From contig NZ_JADX01000004.1 of assembly GCF_000518605.1 (NCBI RefSeq), positions 346,885 to 410,884 of the forward strand: a DNA stretch of 64,000 nt, given 5' to 3'. The stretch comes from Shewanella fidelis ATCC BAA-318 (GTDB lineage: Bacteria; Pseudomonadota; Gammaproteobacteria; Enterobacterales; Shewanellaceae). The notes beneath the pieces are model-generated. The model was not told the DNA's origin. It was given only the letters and a program-made list of their open reading frames with translations, and made no database searches. The position numbers and the translations under genes are program-made. Below are positions 2,465 through 60,530 of the stretch, in pieces (within the stretch, counting starts at the first letter, position 1; each line of letters opens with the position of its first letter).

Positions 2465-4231
2465 ATGAAACGACCTGTAACTCGTAGAGACTTTTTAGCT
2501 ATGTCGGCTAAAGGCGTGGGGGCTGCCGTTGTATCTTATGGCTTAATGGGCTGTAGCAGTGACGATGATGACAAGGGGATTTACGCCGAGTTTTTACATG
2601 GACTCGCCAGTGGTGATCCTAGCCATGATGCTGTGATTATTTGGACTCGAGTCACTCCTGAAGTTGATGGCGATATTAAAGTCGCTTGGGAAGTGGCTAC
2701 TGATGCTAACTTTGCCCAGCTGGTGGTCAGTGGTGACACTATTACCAATAGCGACCGTGACTATACCGTTAAAGTTGATGCCATGGGACTAGAGTCAGGA
2801 ACTCAATATTTTTATCGTTTTAAAACCGGTAATAAGACCTCGCCTGTTGCGATGACCAAGACTTTGCCTCAAGGCGCACTGGATAAAGTGAAATTTGCGG
2901 TGATGTCCTGTGCAAATTTCCCCGCCGGCTATTTTAATGTGTATGAGATGGCGTCCAGAATGGATGACTTAGATGCAGTGATCCATCTGGGGGACTACAT
3001 ATATGAATATGCCCGTGGTGAATATGCAAGCGAGCGTGCTGCTGAGTTACAGCGTGAAGTGTTACCTGTTGGAGAGCTATTTAGCCTAAGCGATTATCGT
3101 ACCCGTTATGCGCAGTATCGCAGTGATTTAAGCTTGCAAAAGCTTCATGGTAAAGCGGCGTTTATTACCGTATGGGATGACCACGAAGTGGCTAACGATA
3201 GCTGGCGTGAAGGGGCTGAAAATCATAACGACGCTGAAGGGGACTTTGACGCCCGTAAAGAGGCAGCATTACAAGCGTACTTTGAGTGGTTGCCGATTAG
3301 GCCGTGGCGAGAGGGGAACCATGAAGAGATTTATCGCTCATTTGCTTTTGGCGATCTTGTTGATTTACATATGTTAGATACGCGCTTAATTGGTCGTGAT
3401 AAGCCGCTTGATTACGCTGAATATATGGATGCAGCTACGGGTGGCCTGGATAGTGACCGCTTTATGGCAGATGTAACGGATACCAATCGCACCATGCTTG
3501 GACAAGCGCAGCAAGCATGGGTACAAACAGCATTGCTGACATCTACAGCAACATGGCAAGTTTTAGGGCAGCAAGTGTTGATGGGGCAAATGATGCTACC
3601 GGCAGCGATTGCAACCCAGCAGTTATCTATCCCTGAGTTTGGTCAGCTTGCTGCATTGGCGCAAATCGCTGCAAGACAAGCGGCTGGCGATCCGAGTTTG
3701 ACTGAAGATGAGCTTAAGTATTTGGCATTTTTCGGTGACAAACTTACGCCTGAGGCTATGGCGCTGCTGCAGTTACCTGCCATTCCATATAATCTTGATG
3801 CTTGGGATGGTTATGCCTACGAGCGTGAAGTGTTACTCGCTACGGCTAAGTCTCAAGCCAAAAATTTGGTGGTGATTGCTGGTGATACACATAATGCTTG
3901 GGCCAATGAGCTGAAAGATGCTGCTGGCGACGCTGTTGGGGTTGAGTTTGCAACCAGTTCGGTGTCATCACCTGGGCTTGAGTACTATTTAGGAATTGAA
4001 GAAAAAGATATTCCGGCAACAGAAGCCGCTATCGTCGATTTGGTAGAAAACCTTGCTTATGCCAATTTAATGAACCGAGGTTTGATGACGCTGACTTTTA
4101 GTCATCAAGAGGTACGCAGCGACTGGCGTTATGTTGACACCATTTATACTCGCGGCTTTACAGAGGCGGTTGAGCGTAATTTCTCGATGGTGACCAAAGC
4201 CGCTAGCCATAAGCTTGAGGTAGCTAGCTAG
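2465..4231 (+). CDS. phoD: PhoD-like alkaline phosphatase/phosphodiesterase, Tat-exported
   Basis: 588 residues. The N-terminus carries a twin-arginine signal (TRRDFLAM, Arg7-Arg8) followed by a hydrophobic stretch ending YGLMGC (Cys30), which resembles a lipobox, so the protein may be a Tat-exported lipoprotein. An N-terminal beta-rich PhoD domain (about 40-135) precedes a metallophosphatase domain with MSCANF (147-152), HLGD (174-177), DDH (238-240) and a C-terminal GDTHNAW. These are the metal-ligand motifs of the Fe/Ca-dependent PhoD family. It should release phosphate from phosphomono- or diesters in the periplasm or at the cell surface. It is a single gene followed by a terminator, and I see no clear Pho box. 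Start ATG 2465 follows AAGGA. Confidence 0.9.
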   Translation: MKRPVTRRDFLAMSAKGVGAAVVSYGLMGCSSDDDDKGIYAEFLHGLASGDPSHDAVIIWTRVTPEVDGDIKVAWEVATDANFAQLVVSGDTITNSDRDYTVKVDAMGLESGTQYFYRFKTGNKTSPVAMTKTLPQGALDKVKFAVMSCANFPAGYFNVYEMASRMDDLDAVIHLGDYIYEYARGEYASERAAELQREVLPVGELFSLSDYRTRYAQYRSDLSLQKLHGKAAFITVWDDHEVANDSWREGAENHNDAEGDFDARKEAALQAYFEWLPIRPWREGNHEEIYRSFAFGDLVDLHMLDTRLIGRDKPLDYAEYMDAATGGLDSDRFMADVTDTNRTMLGQAQQAWVQTALLTSTATWQVLGQQVLMGQMMLPAAIATQQLSIPEFGQLAALAQIAARQAAGDPSLTEDELKYLAFFGDKLTPEAMALLQLPAIPYNLDAWDGYAYEREVLLATAKSQAKNLVVIAGDTHNAWANELKDAAGDAVGVEFATSSVSSPGLEYYLGIEEKDIPATEAAIVDLVENLAYANLMNRGLMTLTFSHQEVRSDWRYVDTIYTRGFTEAVERNFSMVTKAASHKLEVAS

Positions 4232-11266: not shown

Positions 11267-12031
11267 ATGAAATCGATTTATAAATATTCACTAGTGGCTT
11301 TGGCCGTAGTTGGTTTAACAGCGTGTAATCAAGAGAAAGAGGCTGTTGCGGCTACTGCGCCAGTTGAATTGAAAACTGAAGCTCAAAAAGAAGCATACAG
11401 CGTTGGTGCATCAATTGGTACATACATGGCTGGCCACATTAAAGAGCAAGAAGAGCTAGGCCTAAGTGTTGATAGAGCATTGATTGTGACTGGTTTTAGT
11501 GAAGGTCTAAACAGTGAACTGAAGCTATCTCAAGAAGAGATGCAAACCATTTTGCAAAGCTTAGATGAAAAGCTAAATGAAAAACGCCAAGCTCAAGCGG
11601 CTGTGTTGGCTGAAAAAGCTGCAGCAGAAAGCAAAGCTTTCTTAGAAGCTAACAAAGCAAAAGAAGGTGTTATCACTACTGACTCTGGTCTGCAGTATGA
11701 AGTGATTACTGAAGGTACAGGTGAAAAGCCTGTAGCTGAAGATACTGTTAAAGTTCACTACGTGGGAACATTAACAGATGGTACTGAGTTTGATAGCTCT
11801 GTTGCTCGTGGTGAACCAGCAACCTTCCCACTAAACCGTGTTATTCCTGGTTGGACTGAAGGCGTGCAGCTAATGTCTGTAGGCTCTAAGTACAAGTTCG
11901 TTATCCCTGCAGAACTTGCATATGGCGATCGCGATACAGGTACTATTCCAGCAAACTCAACGCTAGTATTTGAAGTTGAACTGCTAGATATTGAAAAAGC
12001 AGGTGCTGCTGACGCGGCTCACGCACATTAA
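11267..12031 (+). CDS. fkpA: FKBP-type peptidyl-prolyl cis-trans isomerase FkpA, lipoprotein form
   Basis: 254 residues. The signal peptide [20 protein letters not shown] ends in a lipobox (LTAC, Cys20), so it is probably an outer- or inner-membrane lipoprotein rather than a soluble periplasmic FkpA. The N-terminal domain (35-135) is the helical FKBP_N dimerisation/chaperone domain, beginning [16 protein letters not shown]. The C-terminal FKBP domain (about 145-245) has [32 protein letters not shown] and ELAYGDR. It should catalyse prolyl isomerisation and help envelope protein folding. The AGGAAG ribosome-binding site precedes ATG 11267. It is monocistronic with a strong terminator. Confidence 0.9.
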
Positions 12032-12080
12032 TCATTTGGTTTGGCATTTGTACTAGTGCTAAGCTAAAATACCAATTGAG

Positions 12081-12107
12081 AAAGGACGCTTTAAGCGTCC
12101 TTTTTTA
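12081..12107 (+). terminator. intrinsic terminator after fkpA
   Basis: The stem AAAGGACGCTT/AAGCGTCCTTT with a single-base loop core is followed by six T. It lies 49 bases past the fkpA stop. Confidence 0.9.
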
Positions 12108-12129
12108 TTTTATCTGCGTTAGTTGCAGT

Positions 12130-12461
12130 TATACCAATTAAGATAAGAAGTTGATCTACTCAGAGCGGTTTTGGCAAACTAATTCAAGGCGAATAATTGA
12201 AAGAATGGTTGCTCCCTTGTGAAGTTATTCAACGCAGAAGTAGGCAGCCAAAAACGCTCCAGAATGGCGAGTTTTAGCGGCTCTGATTACTGCGACTCTT
12301 GATAATAAAAAGGAAGCTTGAACCTAGTTCAACTATGCTCTGCACTTGTTGCGAGCTGCATGGATGCAGCGAATGTCATTAAAGCAGGAGCACTTAATGA
12401 CCTTGCCTCAGTGCCGCTAAATTCTCGCTGAGCGACCAAATCTTTATACTAATTGGTATTA
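12130..12461. repeat. MITE-like structured repeat, long copy (A)
   Basis: A non-coding element of about 332 bases with the same layout as the copy at 12949-13217. The ends are inverted (ATACCAATTA... and ...TAATTGGTAT), though the left end is partly decayed. Inside are two foldable arms. Arm 1 runs from 12163 to 12259: the outer stem GAGCGGTTTTGGC/GCCAAAAACGCTC encloses the inner stem GAATAATT (12191) / AGTTATTC (12223). Arm 2 is GGCGAGTTTTAGCGG (12266-12280) with CCGCTAAATTCTCGC (12414-12428). Arm 2 carries extra sequence absent from the other copy, itself two hairpins: GCTGCAT/ATGCAGC (12355-12370) and GTCATTAA/TTAATGAC (12375-12401). No transposase is present. It occupies nearly all of the gap between fkpA and yacL. 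Confidence 0.85.
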
Positions 12462-12507
12462 GTTAATTAAAATGATCTCGATAGAGACGCTTATTTTTGA
12501 GCTTGGT

Positions 12508-12879
12508 ATGGAATACGAATTTTTACGTAACACTATTACAGATACCGTTTTTGCACGTTTTAGTATGGATCATGAAGCATTAGGCTTGTGGTTGTCAGAG
12601 GAACTCGCTGATAACTTGGAGCTTTATAATCAAATCTGTGATCAAATAGCGCGTTTACAAAGCGGCCAAGGTAATGATTGGCGCTTAGTGGGGAAAGCGA
12701 TTTCATTGGAGCTAGATACTGAGCAGGCTCGCGTGTTTGCTAATGATATTGAAGACAATGAAGATCAAGAGCTTGATGAGTCTATGTCTTTTTATGATGG
12801 CGAGTCTGAAGCATTTTGCGGCTTAGAAGATTTCTATGAAGTGATTTTAAGTTGGCGACGTTTTATCGACGAAAAATGA
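12508..12879 (+). CDS. yacL: UPF0231 family protein YacL
   Basis: 123 residues from ATG 12508. This start (MEYEFLRN...) matches the family N-terminus (MDYEFLRD in E. coli YacL), with a weak GAG ribosome-binding site in front. An in-frame ATG at 12472 would add 12 residues but lacks a ribosome-binding site and sits at the edge of the repeat. The protein is acidic, with conserved stretches MSFYDGES and CGLEDFYEV. Function is unknown; the family is cytoplasmic. It is flanked on both sides by copies of the same structured repeat and is followed by its own terminator, so it is an isolated transcription unit. Confidence 0.85.
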   Translation: MEYEFLRNTITDTVFARFSMDHEALGLWLSEELADNLELYNQICDQIARLQSGQGNDWRLVGKAISLELDTEQARVFANDIEDNEDQELDESMSFYDGESEAFCGLEDFYEVILSWRRFIDEK

Positions 12880-12917
12880 TTGCCGATCCTCAGATTTATT
12901 ATTGAGCATAAATAGAC

Positions 12918-12948
12918 AAAAAAGGCAGCGATTCGCTGCCTTTAATTT
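12918..12948 (+). terminator. intrinsic terminator after yacL
   Basis: The stem AAAGGCAGCG/CGCTGCCTTT with a tiny loop is followed by AATTTTA. The downstream repeat begins immediately after it. Confidence 0.85.
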
Positions 12949-13217
12949 TATACCAATCAGTATAAGAATTTGATCTACTCAGAGCGGTTTTTGGCAAACT
13001 AATTCAAGGCGAATAGCTGCAATAATGGTTATTCCCTTATCAAGCTATTCAACGCAGAAGTAGGCAGCCAAAAACGCTCCAGAATGGCGAGTTTTAGCGA
13101 TTCTGATGCAGTGTTAACGAGCTTAAACGTAGAACAACTATGCCCTTCACTCGTTGCCTTGCCTCAAAACCGCTAAACTCTCGCTGAGTGACTAAATGTT
13201 TATACTGATTGGTATTA
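12949..13217. repeat. MITE-like structured repeat, short copy (B)
   Basis: About 269 bases bounded by a perfect 16-bp terminal inverted repeat, ATACCAATCAGTATAA (12950-12965) and TTATACTGATTGGTAT (13200-13215). The inverted similarity continues inward, with a gap, to about 45 bases. Arm 1 (12982-13079): GAGCGGTTTTTGGC/GCCAAAAACGCTC encloses GAATAGCT (13011-13018) / AGCTATTC (13043-13050). Arm 2: GGCGAGTTTTAGCG with CCGCTAAACTCTCGC. It lies in direct orientation to copy A. The right end touches the narP stop codon, so it forms the 3' trailer of narP-side transcripts. No coding capacity. Confidence 0.9.
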
Positions 13218-13847
13218 TTACTGGTTCAAGTAACGAACAGCCATTTCGGTACGTGATTTGGCATTAGCTTTACGTAGTAGGTTTTTCACGTGTACTTTAA
13301 CGGTGCCTTCACTGATATGTAGCTGTTCAGCGACCACGCGATTACTTTGACCTTCCGCAAGGTGTTGCAAGATCTCAAGTTCACGTGGCGTAAGGTTCTC
13401 AATCCACTCTTGCTCGTTAACCGTGCTGTTTAGCTCAGATAAATACTCTTGTACTGTTTCACTGATAACGCGGTGACCAAGCATGGTCTTTTTCAGCATA
13501 TCAAGCAATAGATCAGGTTCAGTATCTTTAAGTAGGTAACCGTCAGCGCCTGCACGAACAATACGAATAACATCTTGCTTTGCATCAGATACGGTTAAAA
13601 TGACGATGCGAGAAGTAACCCCTTCCTGTCTTAGCGCATTAAGCGTATCTAAGCCAGTCATCCCCTTCATATTTAGGTCTAGCAATATAATATCGGGTTC
13701 GTTTTCACTTACTGCTGCTAGGGCATCTAATCCTGATCCTGCTTCACCAAATAAGCTAAAGTCTGAATCCGAGGTTACTAGCTGACAGATCCCACGACGT
13801 AGTAGTGGATGATCATCGATCACTAATACTGAGTAGGGTTTTCCCAT
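13218..13847 (-). CDS. narP: nitrate/nitrite response regulator NarP
   Basis: 209 residues. An N-terminal receiver domain has the acidic pocket Asp11-Asp12 and phospho-acceptor Asp57 (IILLDLNMKG). A C-terminal LuxR/NarL-type helix-turn-helix follows (about 148-209; LTPRELEILQHLAEGQSNRVVAEQLHISEG... segment). It is encoded 89 bases after the sensor narQ on the same strand and lies near nrfA. It should bind heptamer sites of the TACYYMT type; a 7-2-7 site is present upstream of nrfA. Start ATG 13847 has GGAGGCGG in front, a strong ribosome-binding site. Assigned as NarP rather than NarL because of the nrfA context and pairing with NarQ. Confidence 0.9.
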   Translation of the reverse strand: MGKPYSVLVIDDHPLLRRGICQLVTSDSDFSLFGEAGSGLDALAAVSENEPDIILLDLNMKGMTGLDTLNALRQEGVTSRIVILTVSDAKQDVIRIVRAGADGYLLKDTEPDLLLDMLKKTMLGHRVISETVQEYLSELNSTVNEQEWIENLTPRELEILQHLAEGQSNRVVAEQLHISEGTVKVHVKNLLRKANAKSRTEMAVRYLNQ

Positions 13848-60511: not shown

Positions 60512-60530
60512 TAATACCAATTAGTATAAA
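60512..60530. repeat. solitary end fragment of the yacL-region repeat family
   Basis: TAATACCAATTAGTATAAA matches the terminal repeat of the 12130/12949 elements. No matching second end nearby. It lies between divergent genes and may overlap their promoters. Confidence 0.5.

Follow-up and report, generated by a model that had tools for sequence, protein, structure and literature searches.

Two copies of a MITE-type mobile element with a conserved two-arm fold flank yacL in Shewanella

Bacterial MITEs are usually viewed as decaying transposon stubs, and a 3-bp TWA target duplication is characteristic of PIF/Harbinger (Tourist MITEs) and IS5-type elements. Among the other small repeats, REP/BIME sequences are extragenic palindromes often located at gene 3' ends, and ERIC carries one central hairpin. 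The element described here shares with MITEs a length below 450 bp, the lack of genes, inverted ends, a target duplication and many dispersed copies, and differs in that its core structure has been kept by compensatory change across many genera. Like ERIC (IRU, RU-1), it is intergenic, structured and non-autonomous; ERIC, however, is given as 127 bp with TA duplications in the relevant section of PMC2759123, whereas the present element has two inverted arms within about 264 bp and, in Shewanella, the 3-bp TWA duplication. It also resembles REP/BIME as an extragenic palindrome often found at gene 3' ends, but REP elements are 20-40 bp (PMC3733652) and are associated with tyrosine transposases (PMC2817692), and membership was rejected on length and duplication, the present element being long-armed with a 3-bp target duplication. 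Finally, an intergenic repeat in Vibrio, around VC2263, was classed by Delihas (2007) as an RU-1f variant with 28 copies and treated as a small reading frame, with no two-arm anatomy in the part of that paper devoted to it (PMC2759123); the printed peptide of this repeat could encode a TATACCCAAAC-type end.

The window, that is, the whole 64-kb stretch of DNA that was analysed, belongs to a 4.80-Mb draft genome and contains the gene order fkpA, copy A, yacL, copy B, narP-narQ. A previous sequence-only reading had described two directly oriented copies flanking yacL, with shared ends, outer stem, inner stem and second arm and without coding capacity. Both copies were found at those sites with all of these parts, and no ORF of at least 80 aa lies inside either of them (264-327 bp). 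The features are as follows.

12077..12107, plus strand: terminator-like hairpin 3' of fkpA, just 5' of copy A
12129..12131, no strand: TTA, left target duplication of copy A (sequence and family rule)
12132..12458, plus strand: copy A, full element TACC...GGTA, 327 bp, carrying an extra insert (sequence, end pairing)
12157..12261, plus strand: arm 1 hairpin of copy A (model R1, 124.4 bits, E 4.3e-31)
12266..12435, plus strand: arm 2 of copy A, split by the insert, bounds approximate, no R1 match (sequence, folding, arm-2 stem)
12351..12400, plus strand: optional insert of copy A, about 49 nt, with two covarying stems (helices 11 and 12), bounds approximate
12459..12461, no strand: TTA, right target duplication of copy A (sequence)
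12472..12879, plus strand: yacL (UPF0231), between copies A and B (family match)
12921..12943, no strand: two-way terminator-like hairpin in the yacL/narP interval, just ahead of copy B
12948..12950, no strand: TTA, left target duplication of copy B (sequence)
12951..13214, plus strand: copy B, full element, 264 bp (sequence, end pairing)
12976..13081, plus strand: arm 1 hairpin of copy B (model R1, 129.2 bits, E 2.1e-32)
13085..13190, minus strand: arm 2 of copy B, inverted relative of arm 1 (R1, 51.6 bits, E 2.4e-11, minus strand)
13215..13217, no strand: TTA, right target duplication of copy B, abutting the narP stop codon

Copy A exceeds copy B in length by the hairpin insert (about 49 nt) plus about 15 nt at other positions. 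In the inner stem of arm 1, copy A pairs GAATAATT with AGTTATTC and copy B pairs GAATAGCT with AGCTATTC, which amounts to one A-U/G-C swap and one U.G/C-G change, so that the compensatory change proposed previously can be read directly from both sequences. Most members of the subfamily of copy B in this genome read AGCTAATC and therefore have one A.A mismatch in the inner stem; copy B is atypical for its own subfamily. Elsewhere in the window, lone end-like sequences occur at 60515 and 41800 (TACCAATTAGTATAA and a one-mismatch form), with no partner end nearby.

Further copies, on whose existence the sequence-only reading had staked its proposal, are abundant: with up to 3 mismatches allowed, the genome contains the arm-1 motif 66 times (0 with a reversed-pattern control), and matches are also present in relatives. 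Out of 69 places fetched from the own genome, four lacked the motif and 65 were kept; after setting aside 16 without a clear second end and one (L071) at the same place as another (L033), 48 distinct two-ended copies remained, to which 36 copies from relatives were added (four of 40 loci gave no end pair). Identical triplets flank 34 of the 48 own-genome copies and 35 of the 36 copies from relatives, the latter having been selected with a pattern that demands TWA at one end. TAA or TTA stands on both flanks in 72 copies, 69 of them identical on left and right. By hand count among the matches listed, exact-end pairs carry the same letter in 30/32 cases in G014, 35/36 in G022 and 27/27 in five further genomes. 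The left and right flanks thus agree, both being TAA or both TTA, and the triplet is therefore a duplication and not part of the inverted repeat, which itself (helix 1) is paired in 98.7% of its cells.

An insertion event can be followed in the nested copy L042 (G000 C12:29221-29617), which lies at TTA in the arm-1 apical loop of another copy: removal of L042 together with one TTA rebuilds the loop of the host copy, one base off the usual form, and so provides a paralogous empty site. The element is short and gene-less, with inverted ends, a target duplication and many dispersed copies, as in MITEs, and copies A and B almost certainly belong to a mobile, non-autonomous element of this type. 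In the sequence-only reading the repeat might have been a mobile element, an mRNA 3'-end structure or both, and the mobile part is borne out by the many copies, the inverted ends, the 3-bp duplication and the nested empty site. At the yacL locus of S. pneumatophori neither copy is present, although this is not an exact empty site because the intergenic sequence has diverged, and the corresponding locus of S. marinintestina is occupied by a 93-bp element that has ends of this kind and contains part of arm 2. The yacL gene itself, whose start is probably at 12508 since the UPF0231 family match begins at residue 13, has its nearest relatives in Shewanella sp. 1CM18E and S. pneumatophori (87-88% identical).

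Several forms of the element were recognized, namely two-armed (with or without an insert of 49 nt or more), single-arm and near ends-only. Mini-elements of about 43-64 bp, barely more than two inverted ends with matching TWA, were seen in L079 (about 2979-3043), L092 (about 3025-3068) and L156 (64 bp), and L147 and L174 show internal deletions of arm 1 or part of arm 2 with both ends and matching TTA flanks retained. Another copy, L033 (about C8:81860-82270), also lies inside arm 1 of a further copy at a similar but less clear place. Back-to-back copies in which one TWA is common to two ends (L049; G022 C10:50658-50690; C27:56108-56140) look as though the element preferentially targeted its own edge.

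The sequence-only reading had also suggested looking for a full-length transposase copy with the same ends, and no such copy was found in a search that took in two Pfam families, the exact ends among the matches listed, and some of the genomes. The exact-end pattern, run on 40 genomes of the genus (13 with a match) and inspected in nine genomes plus G022 (about 100 places each in G014 and G022), gave no gene-bearing end pair 1-3 kb apart among the matches listed. The TWA duplication of the Shewanella copies is shared with PIF/Harbinger and IS5-type elements; in contrast to these, PF13359 (DDE_Tnp_4) was found in none of the 12 copy-bearing genomes, and PF01609, present in 11 of the 12 with 94 matches, showed none flanked by element ends as an autonomous element at the 30 loci scanned. 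Derivation from Tourist/PIF-Harbinger or IS5 through a related DDE transposase with the same ends was set aside on these results. The single PF01609 locus of the own genome has internal stops and is without element ends.

Other candidates were rejected individually. L198, the only scanned locus with an end at up to 2 mismatches, is an IS4-type insertion into a copy; this IS4-family element (1227-1678, in G014) sits about 35 nt inside a repeat copy at a contig end, and we take its tip to be IS10-like. L184 and L200 show nothing beyond the 10-base tip, on one side. In G014, a lone end and the left end of a complete copy, 2.4 kb apart, are separated by ORFs that by eye are metallo-hydrolase-like and LysR-like, with no transposase, and the 2.1-kb end pair at C4:123187-125336 proved to enclose host genes, with a truncated copy on one side and a mini-element on the other. 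When plasmids and phages were searched with a Shewanella copy as query, no or weak matches were returned, and in viral contigs, scanned for the ends and the core, 13, 8 and 1 single matches turned up, close to chance by estimate.

The element body consists of two hairpin arms of about 106 nt each, and the copies fold better than dinucleotide shuffles (copy B, z=-8.4, 0/200 as good; copy A, z=-4.0, 0/100). A covariance model of arm 1 (R1), built from 48 of 65 arm-1 segments (alignment A3), matches arm 2 of copy B on the opposite strand, and arm 2 is therefore a diverged, inverted relative of arm 1; such pairs of arms, inverted and a few bases apart, recur in distant loci. R1 also matches some arms weakly on the opposite strand, as the arms are near-palindromic. 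In an alignment (A2) of 68 of 72 copies from eight Shewanella genomes, with L073, L157, L173 and L174 omitted, 98.6% of structure cells are paired, and 150 two-sided cells were counted against 40.5 (sd 9.1) after shuffling and at most 27 when slid. The outer stem occurs as GAGCG/CGCTC, GAACG/CGTTC, GAGTG/CACTC and GCGTG/CACGC, and the insert stems (helices 11 and 12) covary as well. A wider alignment (A5) took in 150 of 159 matches. Among 53 two-arm matches at 29 loci (13 of the same genus), two-sided changes affect 29/29 model pairs, with 530 two-sided cells against 158.2 (sd 12.6) shuffled and a covariation score of 0.809 against 0.216 shuffled and at most 0.131 in slides, these values coming from an alignment fitted to the structure. 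Conservation of the two-arm fold by compensatory change is thereby established, and the pairing conservation proposed for copies A and B extends far beyond them; the lack of covariation among many copies, which had been named as the outcome that would speak against it, was not what the alignments showed.

The same matched changes could in principle arise by quasi-palindrome correction through template switching, with a few master copies being multiplied and no structural selection. The arms are near-palindromes, some copies are young (98% identity to copy A), and the mean conservation of unpaired columns (0.69) hardly differs from that of paired ones (0.65), all of which would suit this explanation. 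We nonetheless consider it very improbable: raised conservation is confined to certain internal loops, and these (CAAGGC, AATGGT, TCCCTT and AAC reach 80% identity over the 29 loci) persist while the stems are rewritten, the rewriting across the loci compared extends to all 29 of the 29 pairs, and a correction acting on the duplex predicts no excess of G.U over A.C, contrary to the arm-1 counts given below.

RNA tolerates G.U but not A.C, and both arise by mirror-image mutations, so a constraint at the level of the duplex should yield them equally. A first strand test (200 G.U against 14 A.C cells) was discarded as biased, since folding one strand as RNA selects G.U and folding of the minus strand mirrors the result. 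Alifold structures derived for each strand likewise favour their own strand, their union giving 48 G.U against 44 A.C events and their shared pairs 6 against 7. With a strand-neutral structure, from which G.U was excluded and which was found on both strands, arm 1 shows 24 G.U against 5 A.C events (p=0.00055), whereas arm 2 (24 against 31) and the ends (12 against 13) show no bias. Admitting more pairs reduces the bias of arm 1, which falls to 29 against 14 (p=0.03) with the union of both strands' pairs; a separate test gave 24 against 3. Unpaired positions of arm 1 stand at 28 against 35, and the mutation spectrum is therefore not the cause of the bias. Outside Shewanella, arm 1 has 23 G.U and 0 A.C (463 cells, 16 sequences) in matches that were found with a G.U-tolerant RNA model. 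Arm 2 on its own strand gives 60:35 and 6:6 (G.U:A.C), so that a symmetry of the two arms is unsupported, and given the own-strand bias of the Alifold structures the strand signal is carried by arm 1 alone, which was singled out after the data had been seen.

Because G.U exceeds A.C in arm 1 and not in arm 2 or the ends, arm 1 appears to be under selection as a single strand in folded form, for which RNA is the simplest reading. Selection of arm 1 as a single-stranded structure appears highly probable, and that the strand is RNA rather than DNA is favoured with less assurance; single-stranded DNA of one polarity gives the same sign, and RNA is therefore likelier, not proven. Alternatively, the arms may act as DNA, namely as subterminal hairpins extruded as cruciforms or single strands and read by the mobilising transposase, with stems kept for transposition and RNA irrelevant. 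The two arms lie symmetrically within both ends as inverted copies of each other, the terminal inverted repeats and arm 2 lack a strand bias, and five single-arm copies of about 164 bp have similar junctions at different sites, as a role in transposition would lead one to expect; the one-strand G.U bias of arm 1 runs against it, as do the ends-only elements with matching TWA (such as L156, 64 bp), which suggest that the arms are dispensable, although deletion after insertion would leave a similar picture. We regard this DNA-based reading as a rather doubtful though serious alternative to an RNA hairpin in arm 1.

Simple ORF calls on both sides were available for 72 copies, distributed as 30 convergent, 25 codirectional, 12 antisense tandem and 5 divergent. 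The left gene runs in sense in 62 cases against 17 and the right gene faces the element in 44 against 33 (Fisher p=0.006), the copies thus being concentrated at the 3' ends of genes. Of 84 copies, 40 have within 100 nt a terminator-like hairpin that faces the element, both window copies being preceded by one; at control sites 150-450 nt off, which were taken as mostly coding, such hairpins were found in 1 to 3 of 57 to 84. This placement beyond terminators is compatible with a safe landing zone and speaks against read-through being abundant, since with 40 of 84 copies behind such a hairpin read-through into the element should be limited. The 3'-end role considered in the sequence-only reading thus has a positional bias on its side, but can be put forward only tentatively, both window copies and the 40/84 lying beyond a terminator-like hairpin. 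By eye, terminator-like hairpins facing the element were also seen in V. campbellii (L243) and Pseudoalteromonas (L245).

The preference for the 3' ends of genes and for gaps between convergent ones would suit an ordinary MITE whose hairpins serve as terminators, RNase III sites or mRNA 3'-end stabilisers in the manner of ERIC or Correia elements, both of which are reported to affect host transcripts in the passage dealing with them (PMC10969869). No T-run follows the arms of copy A or copy B, however, and many copies lie beyond terminator-like hairpins, so that we hold this account to be improbable.

On balance, we lean slightly towards a MITE-type element in which arm 1 is kept as an RNA hairpin produced by read-through from the left gene. 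A transposase supplied in trans would cut at the TACC...GGTA tips, whose anatomy is directly visible, and insert the element at TWA with a 3-bp duplication. The body would be an ancient module, spread across the order and made up of two inverted hairpin arms, of which arm 1 is selected as a folded strand of one polarity, presumably an RNA hairpin made when transcription continues from the left gene, and the conserved loops CAAGGC, AATGGT..TCCCTT and AAC might be the site where a protein binds or cuts. Arm 1 likely works as RNA; its effect is a guess, our own being that the hairpin influences what becomes of the 3' end of the host transcript, or of the RNA of the element itself, and thereby makes insertions at the ends of genes tolerable.

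R1 matches occur in 79/394 genomes and 25/114 genera sampled from the order, with named records in Vibrio tritonius, V. campbellii, Photobacterium sp. DA100 and Pseudoalteromonas shioyasakiensis. Within the genus the distribution is patchy, exact ends being present in 13/40 genomes, and R1 matched nothing at the 20 loci surrounding yacL relatives. A P. damselae plasmid shows blastn similarity over part of the element, yet no R1 match. By eye, many tips outside Shewanella read TATACCC...GGGTATA with TA on each side, which is presumably ERIC-like. Membership of ERIC was nevertheless rejected, since one E. coli copy scores 1.4 bits with R1 over the unit and 6.4 bits at best in 284 nt, and length and anatomy differ. 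Rfam at gathering score returned no match in window positions 11900-13400 nor in 11 distant loci, and no description of the element was apparent among the papers listed by literature searches on short sequence strings and topic, which does not establish its absence from print; these results agree with the earlier impression that no named family was recognizable.

A gene-less element thus keeps a defined fold across many genera, and the strand bias of arm 1 points to RNA. The broader proposition, an order-wide mobile element with structured-RNA cargo (a 106-nt hairpin with conserved loops, in 25/114 genera) that acts in its own mobilisation or on the transcripts behind which it inserts, is advanced tentatively and is the less probable outcome. 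If true, it would constitute an unlisted structured RNA family that moves and is present in well-studied genera such as Vibrio, and the purpose of a MITE interior would become directly testable; by extrapolation, the arm model could help to annotate many unlabelled intergenic stretches.

At the yacL locus itself, promoter predictions show no excess (2 found against 3.0 expected). A TTAAAAT stretch 5 bp past the right duplication of copy A (12459-12508) is conserved upstream of yacL in relatives and resembles a -10 box, and because the duplication ends 5 bp before it, copy A may now stand where yacL had its native -35 region.
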